Assembly (NCBI GenBank): GCA_021208645.1
Contig: JAJOJL010000017.1
Location: 1-55,259, forward strand
From: Bacillus sp. (in: firmicutes)
GTDB lineage: Bacteria > Bacillota > Bacilli > Bacillales > Salisediminibacteriaceae
Length of the DNA: 55,259 bases
Direction of reading: 5' to 3'
Shown here: in pieces, positions 744 through 18,246 of the stretch
How the letters are laid out: each line of letters opens with the position of its first letter
Numbering within the stretch: position 1 is the first letter of the stretch
Made by a program: the position numbers and the translations under genes
Notes under the pieces: model-generated
What the model was told of the DNA's origin: nothing
The model's input: only the letters and a program-made list of their open reading frames with translations
Databases searched by the model: none

Positions 744-1340
744 TTATTTATTATTTGACTGAAATCCGACTCTGATAGTAGCTACTCCTAAATGCTCATG
801 GGCAATTCCCATTATTTTATCGGCTTCTTCTTTGGATAATTCATCAGCTTTCACATAAATTTTAACTTCAAATTCGTCTGCAATTACCAATGCATCTTCA
901 TATCCCTCTGAACGTAACAAATTCTCGACCATTTCTTCGTTTTGCTGCATAGTATATAAATTCTCTACTTGTTCCAATGCTCTTATTTGAGTTTCTGCAG
1001 AAGCGTCAGCAGAAGCAACCACACTCATTAAATCCTCACGAAGTCGTCCTTGCGTATCTGTACGTTGAAGTCTAATTTGATTAAACATTTCATTTACAGT
1101 CAATCCAGAAAAGAAAGAGCCTTCTCCAAGAACCTCCTCAACCTCTTGAAGCTCAATAAGAGTAATATCTCCATCCTCTGTATCCGTGTTCAATCCATCA
1201 TTTTCAGTTTCTTCCTCTTGTTCTTCAGGCATAAACGCTTGGTGATCTTGCATTCTGTCCATAGAAATGTAATAAACAGATAAGACGATAATTAAACTTA
1301 ACATTGTTAACAACCATACCGTTTGTCTCTTAAGTACCAT
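744..1340 (-). CDS. spoIIIAH: Stage III sporulation protein AH
   Basis: SpoIIIAH is a mother-cell protein that crosses the outer forespore membrane and binds forespore SpoIIQ, forming the channel needed for SigG activity. The 198-aa product has one N-terminal membrane segment (about residues 7-27), an acidic linker, and a C-terminal domain of the YscJ/FliF ring-forming type. B. subtilis SpoIIIAH is about 218 aa, so the length fits. It is the last gene of the operon and starts immediately after the spoIIIAG stop. Position and order in the eight-gene cluster make the call firm. Confidence 0.93.
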   Translation of the reverse strand: MVLKRQTVWLLTMLSLIIVLSVYYISMDRMQDHQAFMPEEQEEETENDGLNTDTEDGDITLIELQEVEEVLGEGSFFSGLTVNEMFNQIRLQRTDTQGRLREDLMSVVASADASAETQIRALEQVENLYTMQQNEEMVENLLRSEGYEDALVIADEFEVKIYVKADELSKEEADKIMGIAHEHLGVATIRVGFQSNNK

Positions 1341-1995
1341 TTACGATTCCTCCTCTGATTTCCTTGGTAGCACCGATACTCGGTGTTGAGGTACATCTAA
1401 TACACGACTGACAGCTTCTACGATCCATGTTTTTATTTGGATATTTTCCACTCCGTTGGCAACAACGAGGACCCCCCTAATATCTGGTTTTTCTGTTTTT
1501 ACAATAAGGGCTTCCTCTTTATCACCATTTCGGATAATTACAACCTGCTCTTCCTTTGATTTATCTTGTACTTCCCTTGTTCCTCCTTCCCGATCTGATT
1601 CTTCTGTGAATTGCTCCTTTGTATTGGTGTTATTTTTATAAACAATCTTTTCTGATTCTGCAATATTAACCATCACAGTAACATTAGTAACTCCCAGTAC
1701 ATTTTCCAACGCTCTTGCTAATTGGGTTTCATAATGGGTTTCATAATCAGCCATTGTGTTTAACTCTCGGGGCTCCTCGTTGGATTTAAATACTGTTGAT
1801 GCTACCTCAGGTTCCTGTTCTTTTAATACAGGCATTACAGGTTCATTATCGTTAGACTGCATAAACGTCCCGATCATCATAAAAAAACACCCCAAGAAGT
1901 AATAATCCTGCTAAGTACTTTATTGGCAATTTATTTCCTGAAGTTTTTAGATTAAAAGCTCGAAACAGTGCAGTATCTTTTTTGTTCTCTCCCAT
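1341..1995 (-). pseudogene. spoIIIAG: Stage III sporulation protein AG, frameshifted in a homopolymer
   Basis: SpoIIIAG forms a large ring in the SpoIIIA-SpoIIQ channel. Translation from ATG 1995 gives a cytosolic stretch and the start of a membrane segment (LAGLLLLGVFF). It then goes out of frame at a seven-T run (minus strand, 1881-1887). The rest of the protein continues in the next frame to 1341, giving ...MMIGTFMQSND... and a YscJ-like domain. The span is 655 nt (3n+1), and one T fewer restores about 217 codons, close to the family length. Either the base is a sequencing error, the gene is disrupted, or expression needs slippage. Confidence 0.85.
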
Positions 1996-1997
1996 AT

Positions 1998-2630
1998 TTA
2001 ATCCTCCCCTCCTTTCATATGAACGTGTACAATACTTTCAGGAACTTCCCATAGCGCTGCTAAAAATGAGCTGATCTCACTTGTTTCAGTTGGTGTTGTC
2101 ATGTCTTCTTCCTTCGGTAATTCCTGCATAATTTTTACGGGATCAATTTCAACTACTTTTATACTGTTGTCGTGCTCCATTGCATCAACAGGCTGTAAAA
2201 GAACATACACGCTTGAAAGGTTATCTAATGTTTGTTCATGCTGTAATGAATTAAATTCTAGTACTACATCTAATGGCACCACCTCAAACCGTTCTTCTAA
2301 TTGTTTTGTTGCCTTATTTTTTAATTGGACAGCCACTTGTTCAGAAATATATGCAAGATTGTCCATTTCTATATCCATTTTCTTAGATTCTAATAAACTA
2401 GAATTTTTTTCATTATCAACATCTGTCCAGGAAGTAATATCTTGTAACCATTCATCCGTATCTGTTTGAAAGATAGAAAGAAGGGGTTGTAACATTACCA
2501 TAAGCAGCATAAGTCCAACAACAAGCTTTACATACCTTTGCATTTTAGAGTTAGGCAATAGCAATTCTAATATTGTGGCAAATAAAATTAAGAGAATAAT
2601 ATTTGTGATCCAGGCTGTTATAACACTCAT
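1998..2630 (-). CDS. spoIIIAF: Stage III sporulation protein AF
   Basis: This 210-aa membrane protein has two N-terminal hydrophobic segments (about residues 5-25 and 35-52) and an extracytoplasmic C-terminal region of about 150 residues. That is the layout of SpoIIIAF, a component of the channel complex. It ends two nucleotides before the spoIIIAG start, and a GGAGG-type ribosome site for spoIIIAG lies inside its last codons. The frame is intact, unlike its downstream neighbour. Confidence 0.92.
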   Translation of the reverse strand: MSVITAWITNIILLILFATILELLLPNSKMQRYVKLVVGLMLLMVMLQPLLSIFQTDTDEWLQDITSWTDVDNEKNSSLLESKKMDIEMDNLAYISEQVAVQLKNKATKQLEERFEVVPLDVVLEFNSLQHEQTLDNLSSVYVLLQPVDAMEHDNSIKVVEIDPVKIMQELPKEEDMTTPTETSEISSFLAALWEVPESIVHVHMKGGED

Positions 2631-2677
2631 GCGCTACCTCCTTTCTAATGAAATCGTATATAACTAATATTTGAAAA

Positions 2678-3862
2678 TTACCTCATCATTAATGATAAGT
2701 TACCTGAAATGACAATGATGGTAATGGATAGAAAGAACATTAAAGATACAGTTGCTAATGCTCCGAAAATAAACACCATGGATTTTCCAATGATAGACAG
2801 ACATTGAACAATCGGGCCTCCTCCTAGGGGTTGCAGAATGGCTGCAGTAAATGAGTAAATAAGAGCCAAAGCTAATACTTTTAAGGCAGGAAATGTGCAA
2901 ATTAATAATAGAATTCCAAGTCCAACAACACCGACTGTATTTTTCACTAATACAGAAGCCCCCATTACAGTATCTGCAGCATCGGTGAACATCCTACCAA
3001 CAACTGGAACGAAATTACCTGTAACAAATTTTGCTGTTCGGATGGCTATCCCATCTGCTATGGCAGCAGTAGCACCTTGGACCGATAAAACACCTAAGAA
3101 GACAGTAAGGAACACTCCTAAGCAACCAACGGCTATATTACGGATAAATTGTGCAAGTTTTGTCACTTTATAATGCTCCGTCATGGTACTGACGATAAAC
3201 AATAATGTTGATAGAAATAAGAGAGGTAAAACAACATACTGAACAAAAATTCCACTCGTATGTACGAGAAACATAATGATTGGGTGGAATAATGCAACAG
3301 AAGTAACGCTTCCAGAAGAAGCCATCAACACAAGTAACAACGGTACAAGGGAAACCATAAAATTACTCATAATTTCTATGGTTGTTTGGGCAAATTCCAT
3401 TGCCAATCGAAAGCTATTCAATGCAATAATCAGTAATACCATATAGGTAATGGCGTAAGCTACCTTACTGATAGTATGTTGTTCAAAGGCCTGTTGGAGC
3501 TGGGCTAAGATCATAGAGAAAACAGCTAGCATTACTAAGGTTCCTAATAAAACACCATTTGCAAATATCTCATGAAACAAAAACTTAACAAACCCAGAAA
3601 TCCATTCGCTAAATGAAAACTGCTTGTCTCCACGAACAAAATCCATAAAGCTTCCTCTCTGACTCTCAGGAAGGAAGCCCTCATATTCATTTACAACATC
3701 TTCCCAAAATTGACCAATCTCTTCTATCCCTAATCTTTCCAGTTGTCTATCTACCAAATCTTCCTGATCTGGCCCCGGATGCGCTTCTCCAGCTCCTGAT
3801 ACAGACAAGGGTAGGAGGAGAAATAAAACTAGAAAAATCATTAAAATTGCTGATTTTTTCAT
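2678..3862 (-). CDS. spoIIIAE: Stage III sporulation protein AE
   Basis: SpoIIIAE is the large polytopic component of the SpoIIIA complex. The 394-aa product has a cleavable-looking N-terminal signal (KKSAILMIFLVLFLLLPLSVSG), a soluble segment of about 80 residues, then about seven to eight membrane helices rich in Gly/Val/Leu. The length matches the family. It starts 16 nt after spoIIIAD and is translated from ATG 3862 behind GGAGGGAG. No frame defects are visible. Confidence 0.94.
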   Translation of the reverse strand: MKKSAILMIFLVLFLLLPLSVSGAGEAHPGPDQEDLVDRQLERLGIEEIGQFWEDVVNEYEGFLPESQRGSFMDFVRGDKQFSFSEWISGFVKFLFHEIFANGVLLGTLVMLAVFSMILAQLQQAFEQHTISKVAYAITYMVLLIIALNSFRLAMEFAQTTIEIMSNFMVSLVPLLLVLMASSGSVTSVALFHPIIMFLVHTSGIFVQYVVLPLLFLSTLLFIVSTMTEHYKVTKLAQFIRNIAVGCLGVFLTVFLGVLSVQGATAAIADGIAIRTAKFVTGNFVPVVGRMFTDAADTVMGASVLVKNTVGVVGLGILLLICTFPALKVLALALIYSFTAAILQPLGGGPIVQCLSIIGKSMVFIFGALATVSLMFFLSITIIVISGNLSLMMR

Positions 3863-12411: not shown

Positions 12412-12699
12412 CGATCTTTTTCCCTGCGGGGTCTTCTGTCTCTTCCTTTGCTAGCTTTGCTATGTAGCGTATGCGTCGAGACAAATCGAAGCTTATTCAT
12501 GAAGTAAACGCTCTTAGCCGTTGCTTTTCCCGCAGGACTTTGAGATGCTTCCTCGAAATAGCCCACGCACGAAGAAAATGTGTAAGCATTTTCGAGGAGT
12601 CTCGCTCCTTTCGCAAAATCAACGTATATCCAAAATCAACATTATCCACTAACAGAGCCTTTCCTATAAAAAATAAAAAACAACCTTAACCTTCAACGG

Positions 12700-13371: not shown

Positions 13372-16300
13372 CTATAATCCGCATTTTAATTGTGCATTAC
13401 AGTTTGTACATGTGTTACAACCACCGATATCTTCTACTGTACCTTTTCGGCATACTGGGCATGTATCGCCTACTTCACTTCCGTATGTAACGGATGTGCT
13501 GCGCAAGTCAGAAATGGTTTCAACCAGAACTACAGATTTCTTCGTTCCTTTTGTATCCTCGGATGGGTCTCCAGCTAATTCTACTGCGTACATATCATTG
13601 TCTTCTGCTTTTAAGGTTAATACTTGTGAATCACGGCTTCCGTCCACATAAACAGTTCCACCTTTTGCTCCACCTTTGTAAAGACGCTCGTATACTTTCT
13701 TCACTTGGTCCACCGTGTAGCCGCGAGGTGCGTTAACTGTCTTACTTAATGAGCTATCTACCCAGCGCTGAATGACACATTGAACATCGGCGTGGGCTTC
13801 CGGTGAAAGGTCCATACTGGATACAAACCATTCCGGTAAGTTGTTCGGATCTGTTTCTGGATGACGATCTAAATATTCTTGTAAGATTTGGGCCTTTACT
13901 TCTATGAATTTTCCTAAACGACCGCTGCGGAAGTAAGAAAAGGAAAAATATGGTTCAAGGCCGGTGGATACTCCAACCATGGTCCCAGTGCTGCCAGTGG
14001 GAGCAACAGTTAGTAAGTGTGAATTTCGAATACCGTATTTCAAGATTCCTTGCCGGATATCTTCCGGCATCTTTTTCATATAACCAGTATTGATATATTT
14101 CATTCTTAAATGCTGTGTTTCTTGCTCATTGTTTCCTACTAGGAATGGGAAGCTTCCCTTTTCCTTCGCAAGTTCAATGCTTGTCCGATAGGCAGTTGTA
14201 GCAATTGTTTCAAATATCTTATCTACAAGCTCGTTACCTTTATCGGATCCATAAACTGTTTCCGTGTAAATTAAGAGATCGTGCAATCCCATTACTCCAA
14301 GTCCAACACGGCGCTCACCTTTTGCTTGGTTGGTATTTTGGTCAAGGAAGTATGGGGTAGCATCAATTACGTTATCCTGCATGCGGACGCCAGTTGCTAC
14401 TGTTTGCTTCAGCTTTTCGTAATCAACTGTATTATTCTCTTTATCAGCCATTTCTGCTAAGTTTACCGCTGCAAGGTTACACACAGAAAACGGCGCAAGT
14501 GGTTGTTCCAGTAATTGTTATCCCATTGGCTTTTTATCCGATGGTTCTATACCTTCTTATTCGATATAGTTCAGCATATATTTTCATTGCACCTCTTTTG
14601 ATACCTTCTTCATAAAATTTAAAAGCTCTTTCCTTCCCCTGTCTACACCAAAAATTGCTTTTGAAATCACCCTAATATCTTTAACACTAAAATTTTTATT
14701 AATATCATCCAGAAGAGGTTTTATCGTGGTGCTTATCTTATTTAAAGGTGTTGAATTTACTAAATCGTTATTTTCTTTGCACCAATTAATCACAAACCTT
14801 CTTATATCAAGATGGATATTAAATCGTTTTTCAATGTAAGAATTAGTAGCAAGTTTAATTGCTATTTTTCCTGAACATTTTCTACTACAGTACTTTTTGG
14901 AAGATGTTATAAGTACTTTAAAATGAATACCACAATTTAAGCAACACCTAAATTGGCGTGGGGTTTTTACCTTTCCCTTTTGTGATAAACCACTATTCCT
15001 CAAACCTTCCAACATCCTTTTTTTTGAAACACTATCAGATTCCCATAATTTTTTTGTATGGTTACCAATTTTCATTTTTGCTGTATTACTATGCTTTATA
15101 TTGTAATGTCCGTTTAACTTTCCTTTATTTTTTTTATTAACTGTAGTATGTTCGGAATCAATCCATTCAGAAATTGTACTTGTTAAAGAAAAGGGTAGTT
15201 TTTTATATAAGATCAATAATTCTTCATAAGAAATTAATTCTACCTCTATACCGTATTTTTCTTTAATAACATTTAATGCCATTAAAGCTTGGTTTTTAGC
15301 AATTTTGTGCCTTGATTTAATTTCTACAATCTTAATTATTTGACCTATTTCATTATAAAAGAAGAAGTCAGGCTTATAAATTTTATATTCAATATCAAAA
15401 TCCCTATCCTCATAACTCCAAGAAACCGAGAAATAATCTAAATATTTCGCATATGCATATTCATAAGAACTTCTTAAATAGTAGCCTTTATAAAAACCAG
15501 CATATCCTCTATTCATATTAATCACTCTTTCTCGAAAAGGGATTGTACAATGCTGCGGCCTCGTGGATGAATTATATTCTCTAATATAGAGGTTCACCAT
15601 CTATGCGTTGCCCCTGGCTAAAGTTTTACGTTTAGCCTTCGGTTCGGGTTGGCAATCTCAGCTTTCCCGCTTCATTCCGCAGTTTTTTACGTGAGGCAAA
15701 TCAAGCCACTTTACCACACGGATTTGTTGCAACAACTTTCTGACCATATGCTTTCGCGTTCGTCATTTCATTGGCGTTATCAATAAAGAAAATGCCTGGT
15801 TCAGCTGAATACGTTGCACAAATATTAATTAGATTCCAAAGCTCTTTCGCTTTGATTTTTCGGTACGTACGAACACCGAAGCCTAATGTTTCCCACTCTC
15901 TCACGTCTCCATATTCTTGCCACTCACGATTGTATGCTTCCATTTCCGCTTCGTTGTAATTTTCTACGTCAGGGAAACGAAGAGCATAATCTGTATCGTT
16001 TTCTACAGCTTCCATGAAATCTTTTGTTATACAAACGGAGATGTTTGCTCCAGTTAAAAACTCCGAGTTATTAACAGAATAAGTTCCGCCGGTACGAAGT
16101 TTGTCCTCTGCCTCTTGGATAACCTTAGGATCAAAGCCTCCTGTACCTGGGATATGCTTATAATTGATAATCCCTTGGTACATGGCTTCTTCCAGTTCTG
16201 TTAATGGGGTAAATTTAAGTTTTTCTTGGATTAATCTCTTAATCTGTTTATCTTCTGTATTTTCTAGTAAGTATCGTAAAATTCTTGGATTTTGCATTTT

Positions 16301-17470
16301 AGAGATGATGAACTCCAAAATGTCCGGATGCCAATCAGCTAACATTATCATCTGGGCCAAATTGTTGCGTTGATTCGTTATATCAACTCTCTAAGTCACC
16401 TTAGAGTTCAGACCATATTTTACACTAAAAATAGTGTCCTCGCGCTTCGGAATCACTTGATTCCTACTCTACTCACTTCCACTTATTGTGTGCTTTCGAT
16501 GGTCGTTGAACCTTCTCCAGTTTATAGGAGCTTGGCTGCTGATTGTCTTTATCCACTTACTGTTTTTACGCATTCACGCTTACCGTTTCCGGTTACGTTG
16601 TAGCCAGTAAGTCATACCAAAGAGTTTCCAGCAATTCACGAGGTTTATTTATAGACGAGGCACTTTTTATGAAGGTTTACCACGTCTTGACCCACCTTGT
16701 TCTACTAAATGGGTGAGTTTCGCAATATCATCTAGCCAAGAAACGGAACCGGAGGATTTACCATTCACTCCCCTTGCAAGAGTGTTACGAGGTCTTAGTG
16801 TGGAACCATTCGTTCCAACCCCGCCACCGCGACTCATAATCTCCATTACTTGTTTACGGTGCTCTGAAATTCCTTCACGAGAATCAGGAACAAAAGGCAT
16901 CACGTAACAGTTAAAATAAGTCACGTCTGTTTCTGCACCTGCACCGTATAGCACACGTCCTGCAGGAACGAAATTCATACTCATTAATTCATGGTAAAAC
17001 TTCTGGACAGAATCTTCCCGTTTTTCTGGATCAATCTCTACTTCTGCTAATCCCCTAGCATTTCGCTTAGCAATTTGCTCGTAATAGATTTCTAGAGGCT
17101 TGTCAATGGTGTCAAGGGAACGTTCTACAATCCCCGTTTTCTTTTCTTCAGCATCGTCAAGTACACCGAGAAACTCTTCTTCCACCGCAATTTTGGCACG
17201 ATTCTCATCCCAGTTAATTTCTGTGACAAAACCGTAACCACGTGCCGGAAACTTAGGATCAGATTTTACCGTTAAAACGACAAAATCTCCCGGCTTTAAT
17301 GTTTTTTTCTCCGTGTCTTTAAACGTATAGCGGTCTAACATGACCAACCTTGATACTCCACTTTGTTTTATTTTCATCTCTGGAGTAATTGGAAAGACTT
17401 GAGGAAACTGTTCAATATCCTTATTGAGTCCCTCTACGTCGATCGTTTTTTCAGACATAAACGTCTTCAC
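13372..17470 (-). CDS. nrdJ: Class II (B12-dependent) ribonucleotide reductase with two group I introns
   Basis: NrdJ makes deoxyribonucleotides using adenosylcobalamin. The coding exons are 17470-16679, 16357-15714 plus 15713 (645 nt in all), and 14508-13372. Joined, they give exactly 858 codons (857 aa) without indels. Active-site cysteines are visible: redox Cys in TYFNCYV, radical Cys in NPCGEQ and its partner 11 residues later in FSVCNL. The C-terminal tail has CPVC and CNTCTNC motifs. Exon 1 ends ...GGSRRG and exon 2 begins AQMIMLADWHPD; exon 2 ends ...NPCG and exon 3 begins EQPLAPF. GTG 17470 is the likely start. It lies between mntR and lipM, flanked by repeats, and is probably acquired relative to B. 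subtilis. Confidence 0.92.
14509..15712 (-). mobile_element. Group I intron 2 in nrdJ (1,204 nt, with homing endonuclease gene)
   Basis: The boundaries come from restoring NPCG|EQPLAP. The 5' exon ends in U, the intron ends in G, and P1 pairs exon CGUGUGGU with intron GCCUCACG (U.G at the splice site, one U-U mismatch). An R-like element CAACGCATAGATGG (about 15598-15611) and an S-like AAAATATATGCTGAAC (14569-14584) share the P7 pairing GCAUA/UAUGC. The endonuclease frame fills the R-S interval (P8 region), and its stop overlaps S. The insertion site is one codon after the radical cysteine. Confidence 0.88.
14584..15516 (-). CDS. Intron-encoded PD-(D/E)XK-type homing endonuclease
   Basis: The product is about 310 aa from ATG 15516; the frame is open to 15600, but that start would overlap the intron R element. 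The N-terminal half has the nuclease pattern: SSYEYAYAKYLD (Glu), YKPDFFF (Pro-Asp) and IVEIKSRHK (Glu-x-Lys). This is the Vsr-like/EDxHD group fold, of which the phage recA-intron enzyme I-Bth0305I is a known member. The C-terminal half has a zinc-finger-like CLNC...CSRKC and basic DNA-binding segments. It likely cleaves intronless nrdJ at the NPCG site and so spreads the intron. AT content is higher than in the exons. Confidence 0.8.
   Translation of the reverse strand: MNRGYAGFYKGYYLRSSYEYAYAKYLDYFSVSWSYEDRDFDIEYKIYKPDFFFYNEIGQIIKIVEIKSRHKIAKNQALMALNVIKEKYGIEVELISYEELLILYKKLPFSLTSTISEWIDSEHTTVNKKNKGKLNGHYNIKHSNTAKMKIGNHTKKLWESDSVSKKRMLEGLRNSGLSQKGKVKTPRQFRCCLNCGIHFKVLITSSKKYCSRKCSGKIAIKLATNSYIEKRFNIHLDIRRFVINWCKENNDLVNSTPLNKISTTIKPLLDDINKNFSVKDIRVISKAIFGVDRGRKELLNFMKKVSKEVQ
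16358..16678 (-). mobile_element. Group I intron 1 in nrdJ (321 nt, no ORF)
   Basis: Boundaries were set by joining GGSRRG|AQMIML. The 5' exon ends GGU, and P1 pairs exon AGACGUGGU with intron GCCUCGUCU, again with the splice-site U.G and one U-U mismatch. The classical elements are clear: P AATTGCTGGAAACTC, Q AATCAGCAGCC, R GTTCAACGACC and S AAAATATGGTCTGAAC. P7 forms from GUUCA/UGAAC and GACC/GGUC. The last base is G. There is no coding capacity, so mobility would have to be in trans. Confidence 0.92.
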
Positions 17471-17650: not shown

Positions 17651-17924
17651 AGTGAAGTTTCTTTAACTTTGTCAACTGGGATTAAATGAATTTTTCCTGC
17701 GAAAAAAAGAGAAAACAGAAGATAAAATGGGATTATCTTACCTTATTGACGAATTTTATAGATTTTGAAAAAAATAACTATATGCCATTTATATTGTCTG
17801 GTATTGGCGAAATATAGATGTTTTCGACAATTTCCTCGCCTTCTTATTACAAGAATTGCTCGTTTAAAGCTTCTCAAATAAAAAAACACGTCTACAAAGA
17901 CATGCCTTTCTTGTTTAACGATCA
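17651..17924. other. AT-rich spacer upstream of the nrdJ promoter region
   Basis: This stretch lies between the NrdR boxes and repeat copy B. It contains no convincing open frame or RNA structure. The bases 17885-17915 include short direct motifs but no clear terminator. Confidence 0.4.
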
Positions 17925-18246
17925 GCTTTTGTTATCCTTTGTTGTTGATTTATGCTACAGGAGCTCGCTTTCCGCGGGCAACGCTTCAGCCTCCTCGTCC
18001 CTGCGGGGTCTTCTGTCTCTTCCTTCGTCGAGACAAATCGAAGCTTATTCATGAAGTAAACGCTCTTAGCTGCTCCTGCGATTACTCGTCGCAAGAAAAA
18101 CCCTTGTTGCTTTTCCCGCAGGACTTTGAGATGCTTCGTGGGGGAATCCCACGCACGAAGAAAATGCGTTAGCATTTTCGAGGAGTCTCGCTCCTTTCGC
18201 AAAATCAACGTATATCCAAAATCAACATTATCCACTAACAGAGCCT
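17925..18246 (+). repeat. MITE-like interspersed repeat, copy B
   Basis: This is the same element as 12203-12663 but shorter. It shares TTTGTTGTTGATTTATGC at the left, CGCTTTCCGCGGGC and CTTCAGCCTCCTCG in the body, and the right end block up to CACTAACAGAGCCT. It lacks the two hairpin modules found in copy A and has about 35 nt (GCTCCTGCGATTACTCG...) that copy A lacks. The left inverted repeat is degenerate, the right one intact. It lies between nrdJ and lipM, so nrdJ is bracketed by two copies in the same orientation. Confidence 0.75.

Follow-up and report, generated by a model that had tools for sequence, protein, structure and literature searches.

In a 55,259-nucleotide (nt) stretch of Bacillus sp. 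DNA (contig JAJOJL010000017.1 of assembly GCA_021208645.1; hereafter the window) the gene nrdJ, coding for a class II ribonucleotide reductase, is interrupted twice, and very probably this is a working gene invaded by two group I introns. The second intron contains a gene for a likely homing endonuclease. Relatives of this nuclease are found in phages next to the halves of split inteins, at most two codons away from the same place in reductase genes, so that one nuclease lineage may have kept its target while changing the splicing element that carries it.

The interrupted nrdJ gene

The nrdJ gene occupies positions 13372-17470 of the minus strand and starts with GTG. Joining 16679-17470, 15713-16357 and 13372-14508 gives 2574 nt, that is, 857 codons and a stop codon with no internal stop, while the unspliced reading frame meets a stop shortly past each 5' splice site. 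The inserts proposed in a preliminary description of this DNA, 16358-16678 and 14509-15712, are exact to the base. Their removal leaves an open frame, and they enter where that description placed them, after GGSRRG (junction GGSRRG|AQM) and at NPCG|EQ (junction NPCG|EQP); its restored frame holds as well, but its length of 858 codons counts the stop. The features are the following (ORF, open reading frame; P1, P3, P7, P8 and so on, helices of the intron RNA).

16679-17470, minus strand: nrdJ exon 1, 264 codons, GTG start, ends GGSRRG; Pfam reductase domains
16653-16661, minus strand: internal guide of intron 1, pairs with exon 16679-16687, read from the sequence
16358-16678, minus strand: intron 1 (site b), ORF-less group I intron, 321 nt; Rfam RF00028, 75.3 bits, E 2.5e-18
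15713-16357, minus strand: nrdJ exon 2, 215 codons, AQM...NPCG
14509-15712, minus strand: intron 2 (site d), 1204 nt with nuclease gene; group I intron as supported by covariation in 46 introns
15690-15697, minus strand: internal guide of intron 2, GCCUCACG, pairs with exon 15713-15720
15677-15682, minus strand: P3 5' strand of intron 2, CUGCGG, partner 15553-15558; 100% of 276 cells paired, 2 of 6 pairs double-changed
15553-15558, minus strand: P3 3' strand of intron 2, CCGCAG, from the covariation alignment
15602-15606, minus strand: P7 5' strand of intron 2, GCAUA, partner 14574-14578; 99.6% paired, without covariation
14584-15516, minus strand: likely homing endonuclease gene, 310 residues, in the presumed P8 loop of intron 2
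14574-14578, minus strand: P7 3' strand of intron 2, UAUGC, directly 3' of the nuclease stop codon
13372-14508, minus strand: nrdJ exon 3, 378 codons and stop, EQPLAP...

A similar repeat flanks the nrdJ region on both sides (12497-12649 and 17915-18235), and ORF fragments starting MDNVDFGYTLILRKERDSSKML are present in both copies.

Intron 1 begins at A16678, after exon U16679, and ends at G16358, before exon G16357. Its P1 pairs exon AGACGUGGU (16687-16679) with guide GCCUCGUCU (16661-16653); the final exon U is paired to G and the intron ends in G, both being marks of group I introns. The Rfam Intron_gpI model covered the whole intron (model positions 1-253; 75.3 bits against a cut-off of 50), and the covariance search that the preliminary description had proposed as a possible refutation of this 321-nt insert thus returned RF00028. 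Relatives of intron 1 are present in other Bacillota at its own site or adjacent to it, with 76-87% identity, and over the adjoining sites a, b and c of nrdJ the blastn identity of related inserts is 68-87%. Some of the relatives have a Vsr/DUF559-like nuclease gene in a loop; intron 1 is a short form, from which this gene is absent.

Intron 2 begins at A15712, after exon U15713, and ends at G14509, before exon G14508, and its P1 pairs exon CGUGUGGU (15720-15713) with the guide at 15697-15690. In both introns the splice site carries a U.G pair, and the fourth exon base away from it is in a U.U mismatch. The two introns agree in exon GUGGU|G and guide GCCUC, this mismatch included, and the mismatch is retained in the Aneurinibacillus and phage inserts described below. 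What is presumed to be the P8 loop, between the P3 and P7 3' strands, contains the nuclease gene, which ends right before P7. In an Rfam search of the window at E<=1 we obtained no match to intron 2; four relatives with a shortened nuclease gene had no Rfam match either, so that the inserted gene alone does not explain the miss. The preliminary statement that both introns obey group I rules was borne out for intron 1 by Rfam, the U.G pair and the final G; for intron 2 it stands on a fold common to 46 copies and not on Rfam.

This fold was derived from 47 loci with an insert at the intron-2 place, namely the window, 39 loci from a nuclease search and 7 further genomes (from 18 fetched stretches, the other 11 duplicating the 39). 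One locus without a 3' end by the pattern used (L078) was left out, giving 46 introns, and two others lacking the NRGYAG start (L041 and L064) had their 5' part trimmed to a set length and were not counted as intact, although L064 may be so. Pairs were counted against 300 shuffles and slid partners. The percentage paired, against the best shuffle, was 100 vs 97.5 for P3, 98.1 vs 90.0 for P6a, 100 vs 73.5 for P7.1, 91.5 vs 78.3 for P7.2, 100 vs 91.2 for P9 and 99.4 vs 88.2 for P9.1. Pairs changed on both strands (shuffle mean in brackets) were 2 of 6 (1.1) in P3, 4 of 7 (3.6) in P6a, 5 of 5 (4.1) in P7.1, 3 of 5 (3.0) in P7.2, 3 of 5 (1.5) in P9 and 5 of 7 (2.4) in P9.1; in P6a, P7.1 and P7.2 the shuffle means are close to the observed values and the count consequently adds little. 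The changes in P4 are one-sided, P6 as drawn includes a mismatch and is 66.7% paired, and P7, being without covariation, speaks neither for nor against the fold. P1 has one doubly changed pair besides its constant U.U mismatch. A P1 with U.G is present in 46 of 46 introns, which is partly built in because the GCC of the guide helped to pick them, and the final G, not used for picking, is also present in all 46. Together, the alignment with its compensatory changes supports, at the level of sequence, the identification of intron 2 as a group I intron. A P7.1/P7.2 pair is a criterion for group I subgroup IA, and its presence suggests that intron 2 belongs there.

Splicing of each intron would start with guanosine attack just 3' of the exon U that is paired to G, the exons would then be joined at the terminal G, and self-removal of both introns from the messenger RNA would restore the nrdJ frame.

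The intron-2 nuclease and its phage relatives

The preliminary description, exact on the boundaries and right on the group I appearance of both inserts, had overlooked the nuclease gene of intron 2 and its relatives in phages. The nuclease frame is intact in the window, and its 310 residues comprise a PD-(D/E)XK-like domain, a NUMOD3-like stretch, zinc-finger-like cysteines (CxxC...CxxxC) and a helical C-terminus. The alpha-beta core fold of PD-(D/E)XK nucleases is found in it. Its active-site motif (E19, P49-D50 and E65-x-K67) shows no variation across 13 bacterial copies, and the E, PD and E-x-K are also unvarying in a 13-row alignment that includes 10 phage rows. By these sequence features the protein is likely a homing endonuclease. 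In PHROGs, a family of unknown function (phrog_21138) covers residues 36-117 with E 5e-8; two HNH-labelled families matched further along the protein at about E 2e-3, and a Holliday-junction-resolvase one at 3e-3. Nothing in NCBIfam was over the cut-off, and an HNH or GIY-YIG identity was rejected, no such match being found in Pfam. An EDxHD homing endonuclease of the I-Bth0305I type was rejected on the spacing of the EDxHD motif, since E65-x-K67 stands where xHD would end it. The EDxHD family name is taken from PMC3943268.

With this protein intron 2 would still be equipped for mobility. The product of the P8 loop is predicted to cut intron-free alleles around the radical-cysteine codons (NPCG|EQ), and repair of the cut would copy the intron into them. 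Indirect signs of such homing are the way in which nuclease genes have decayed and their patchy occurrence.

Viral relatives were found with alignments. A 13-member nuclease alignment led to 35 viral contigs and a mixed alignment to 28 (27 shared, L137 new); a viral scan with the intron-2 nuclease as single protein gave nothing, and two tblastn queries against 50,697 phage records gave no match; one plasmid record was matched. A profile of 33 bacterial copies, run against 1726 ORFs of 37 loci (L137 not included), ranked viral ORFs at E 2e-29 to 8e-13, with weaker values for L119 (2e-6) and L118 (5e-6). Of the 36 viral loci, 35 have the nuclease ORF next to an intein half within a reductase gene. 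Both halves were recognised in 33 of them, on separate frames with the nuclease ORF between them, which is the layout of a fractured gene; L098 has the C side only and L113 the N side only, and the exception, L118, is a weak match outside any reductase gene. Pfam Intein_splicing was found, below cut-off, in the four N-halves scanned. The viral insertion points, read by eye from the start of the intein N-domain and the end of its C-domain, are NPC|C, NP|CGE, NP|CAE and NAC|SEQ, at most two codons (6 nt) from the bacterial NPCG|E. The search targeted the nuclease and not the reductase gene, so this agreement is not built in; its patterns came from known members, and it may have passed over distant ones located at other sites. 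Relatives at the same site in introns and in phage split inteins point to one nuclease family with one active-site target and two splicing vehicles.

Furthermore, four phage loci comprising two distinct sequences (L094, L096 and L104, near-identical, and L105) carry both vehicles. In these loci a split intein with nuclease, its C-part ending ILIHN, is followed by the Cys-Gly codons, an ORF-less intron of 239 or 242 nt just after them, and EQFLWP or EQPLIG. This intron matched the intron-2 profiles (5' profile, E 1e-32 to 1e-34; 3' profile, 2e-4 to 4e-13), which gave no match in the other viral loci of the 36. Its P3 differs from the bacterial one on both strands (UCUCGG/CCGGGA and UUCCGG/CCGGAA), a further compensatory change.

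The nuclease family would thus be faithful to its target and not to its vehicle, residing in group I introns in Bacillota and between split-intein halves one or two codons upstream in phages. We give about even chances to the proposal that a homing-endonuclease lineage remained with a single active-site target in different classes of reductase while switching between group I intron and split intein, with the dual-element phages as a surviving intermediate of the handover; the direction of such a switch we can only infer. If the proposal is true, the reductase of these phages depends on two kinds of splicing, of RNA and of protein in trans, at points six nucleotides apart.

A substantial, though somewhat less than even, possibility is that there was no handover, and that a nuclease already specific for this target as a free-standing gene was captured separately by introns and by split inteins. 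Phage and bacterial nucleases do fall in mostly separate groups of the nuclease tree, and the intron-2 profiles match only 4 of the 36 viral loci, most of which thus have a split intein without this intron adjoining it. However, the two vehicles lie 6 nt apart in the four dual loci, as a handover would leave them, and no free-standing nuclease was seen beside an uninterrupted reductase gene among the loci fetched, where no search was aimed at such copies. In the tree (21 viral rows after removal of near-copies; L118 left out, and L075, not among the 33 intact copies, fell out) the intron and intein members need two label changes (one in 68% of bootstrap trees). The distances between nucleases and those between NrdJ proteins correlate with r 0.59 over 33 loci, so that both long residence and transfer may have contributed.

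Insertion sites in Bacillota and the wider intron core

At E<=0.001, 22 of the 397 order genomes have a match to the nuclease; in 19, the window included, it is strong and at the intron-2 site, and in three it is weak or elsewhere. It is present in one of 35 genomes of the window's family, the window's own, and in 7 of 398 genomes drawn from the class, among them the window and one genome counted earlier. The intron-2 site is conserved, all 39 loci from the nuclease search being interrupted at NPCG|E of nrdJ, down to NrdJ proteins of 38-45% identity. In one genome (G534), with NrdJ about 44% identical, inserts related to both window introns occupy both places. The 35 family genomes all have nrdJ, uninterrupted over residues about 199-674 in 29 and interrupted in six: the window, G013 and G014 (site b), G019 (sites c and e), G021 (site c) and G028. 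The last has an in-frame intein (L186, about 1536-2662) with LAGLIDADG-like motifs by eye, at NP|CGE, the place of intron 2 in the window.

Insertions in nrdJ fall at five sites, which follow residue 262 (a), 264 (b), 272 (c), 479 (d) or 651 (e). Where blast ends were imprecise (rows L052, L064, L069 and L072) the nearest site was assigned, and the group I fold was examined at site d and, by Rfam, at site b only. The double insertion had been called unusual for a Bacillaceae nrdJ, a view that did not survive, as 20 of the 47 Bacillales loci with site d filled have a further insertion (19 in the site map plus L065), some of the 47 being close relatives of each other. One locus (L077) has two intron-1-related matches in a single gap of about 700 nt spanning residues 262-272, with apparently no more than an exon of about 30 nt between them; L035 has a similar gap with one such match. 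The site-b nuclease of L051 is near full length in 5 of 14 rows (L051 and L191, which are one contig, L193, L195 and L196), a remnant in L065 and absent from 8, the window among these. In Pfam the L051 protein is DUF559, the site-e protein of L048 HNH and the a/c protein of L071 LAGLIDADG. A reverse-transcriptase insert is present near residue 458 in L040 (about 883-3498), whose nrdJ is also filled at sites b and d. A record titled Chryseobacterium sp. ISL-80 (L063) has a typical Bacillales nrdJ with intron, and its label is probably wrong. Bacillales nrdJ is consequently a hot spot, with five insertion sites, four nuclease types, one reverse-transcriptase insert and one intein.

The Aneurinibacillus plasmid NZ_CP116888.1 has a monomeric class II reductase with the nuclease (E 4e-80) at NPCA|EIL. 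P1, a 7-bp P3 and P7 were seen in this insert by eye, and the intron-2 nucleotide profiles did not match it.

It is improbable that the introns are kept for regulation of NrdJ, for example by splicing that depends on growth state, and not as selfish elements. Growth-dependent splicing is reported for introns of phage T4, but the nuclease is patchy (22 of 397 order genomes, 19 strong, and one of 35 in the family) and nuclease genes are decayed at some loci. A reading in which the inserts decay and nrdJ is a pseudogene, or yields nothing but fragments, we consider very unlikely, for although a stop follows soon after each 5' splice site, the exons are open and in frame, compensatory changes extend over 46 loci and the nuclease frame is intact.

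The core of intron 2 extends beyond reductase genes. A pattern of this core matched at least 120 viral stretches and 13 of the 398 class-draw genomes, with no match of the reversed control pattern among the rows listed. A reductase ORF was found in only 2 of those 120 viral stretches with a Bacillales NrdJ profile, which may miss other reductase classes. Two introns matching both intron-2 RNA profiles divide recA in the window's genome (gene identified by eye; contig C113, stretch L330, 331-2798), the first having a 301-residue ORF with a Vsr-like stretch, IIEVHGDYWHCNP. A whole-genome Rfam search of this genome reported intron 1 alone, and at gathering threshold Rfam gave no match at the core in 17 core-bearing loci and three Intron_gpI matches elsewhere in them, so that the standard Rfam model largely fails to find a widespread intron core. 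That intron 2 is some other insert, such as a nuclease cassette without ribozyme, agrees with the lack of an Rfam match but is extremely unlikely, since Rfam is a poor judge of this core, the core recurs in recA and in the viral stretches, and the 46 copies have P1 with U.G, the P3/P7 pseudoknot, P4, P6a, P7.1, P7.2, P9, P9.1 and the terminal G.

Comparison with known systems

In the fractured genes of Dassa 2009 a nuclease gene reportedly stands between the two parts of a split intein, half of these nucleases being Vsr-related and found also in group I introns. The phage relatives described here share this layout and the presence of one nuclease family in introns and split inteins; they differ in a nuclease with E-PD-ExK and not Vsr/EDxHD residues, and in that both vehicles lie within 6 nt of one codon, sometimes together. 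Group I introns of Bacillus recA are linked with the EDxHD enzyme I-Bth0305I, which differs from the intron-2 nuclease in catalytic motif and in target gene.

For fractured genes, PMC3653736 cites seven nrdA and two nrdJ cases from Dassa 2009. Staphylococcus phage Twort nrdE has two group I introns (PMC3653736). The window would parallel it in a pair of self-splicing introns close to conserved residues of a single reductase gene, one with a homing endonuclease, but Twort has a phage class Ib gene with an HNH enzyme, whereas here a bacterial class II gene has a PD-(D/E)XK-like one. SPbeta nrdE/nrdF, with introns and an intein, likewise combines both elements in one reductase gene, but no nuclease shared at one codon is described in the available part of PMC3653736, whose references include a title on 'intron-intein coincidence'. 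I-Ssp6803I is a PD-(D/E)XK homing endonuclease with a compact multimerising fold (PMC3943268), of the same superfamily as the intron-2 nuclease, which differs in its 310 residues with NUMOD3-like and zinc-finger-like parts. Inteins and introns are also described near R2 metal ligands (PMC8772380). More than 100 group I introns in reductase genes had been curated in RNRdb by 2009 (PMC2795772, which in its available part names neither their genes nor their sites), and some nrdJ introns counted here may be among them. In the available parts of PMC2795772, PMC3653736, PMC3984707, PMC3943268, PMC8772380, PMC2814812, PMC3229294, PMC10448857, PMC3019208 and PMC6145125 neither introns in Bacillales nrdJ nor this nuclease at one codon in both vehicles is described, though other papers and RNRdb entries may do so.

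The double intron of nrdJ is real, its claimed rarity is not, and what is new is the site-bound life of the nuclease in two vehicles, within a known kind of mobile element. The movement of nuclease genes between kinds of splicing element is an old question, and a shared family, a shared codon region and both vehicles side by side in some phages make the switch directly testable.

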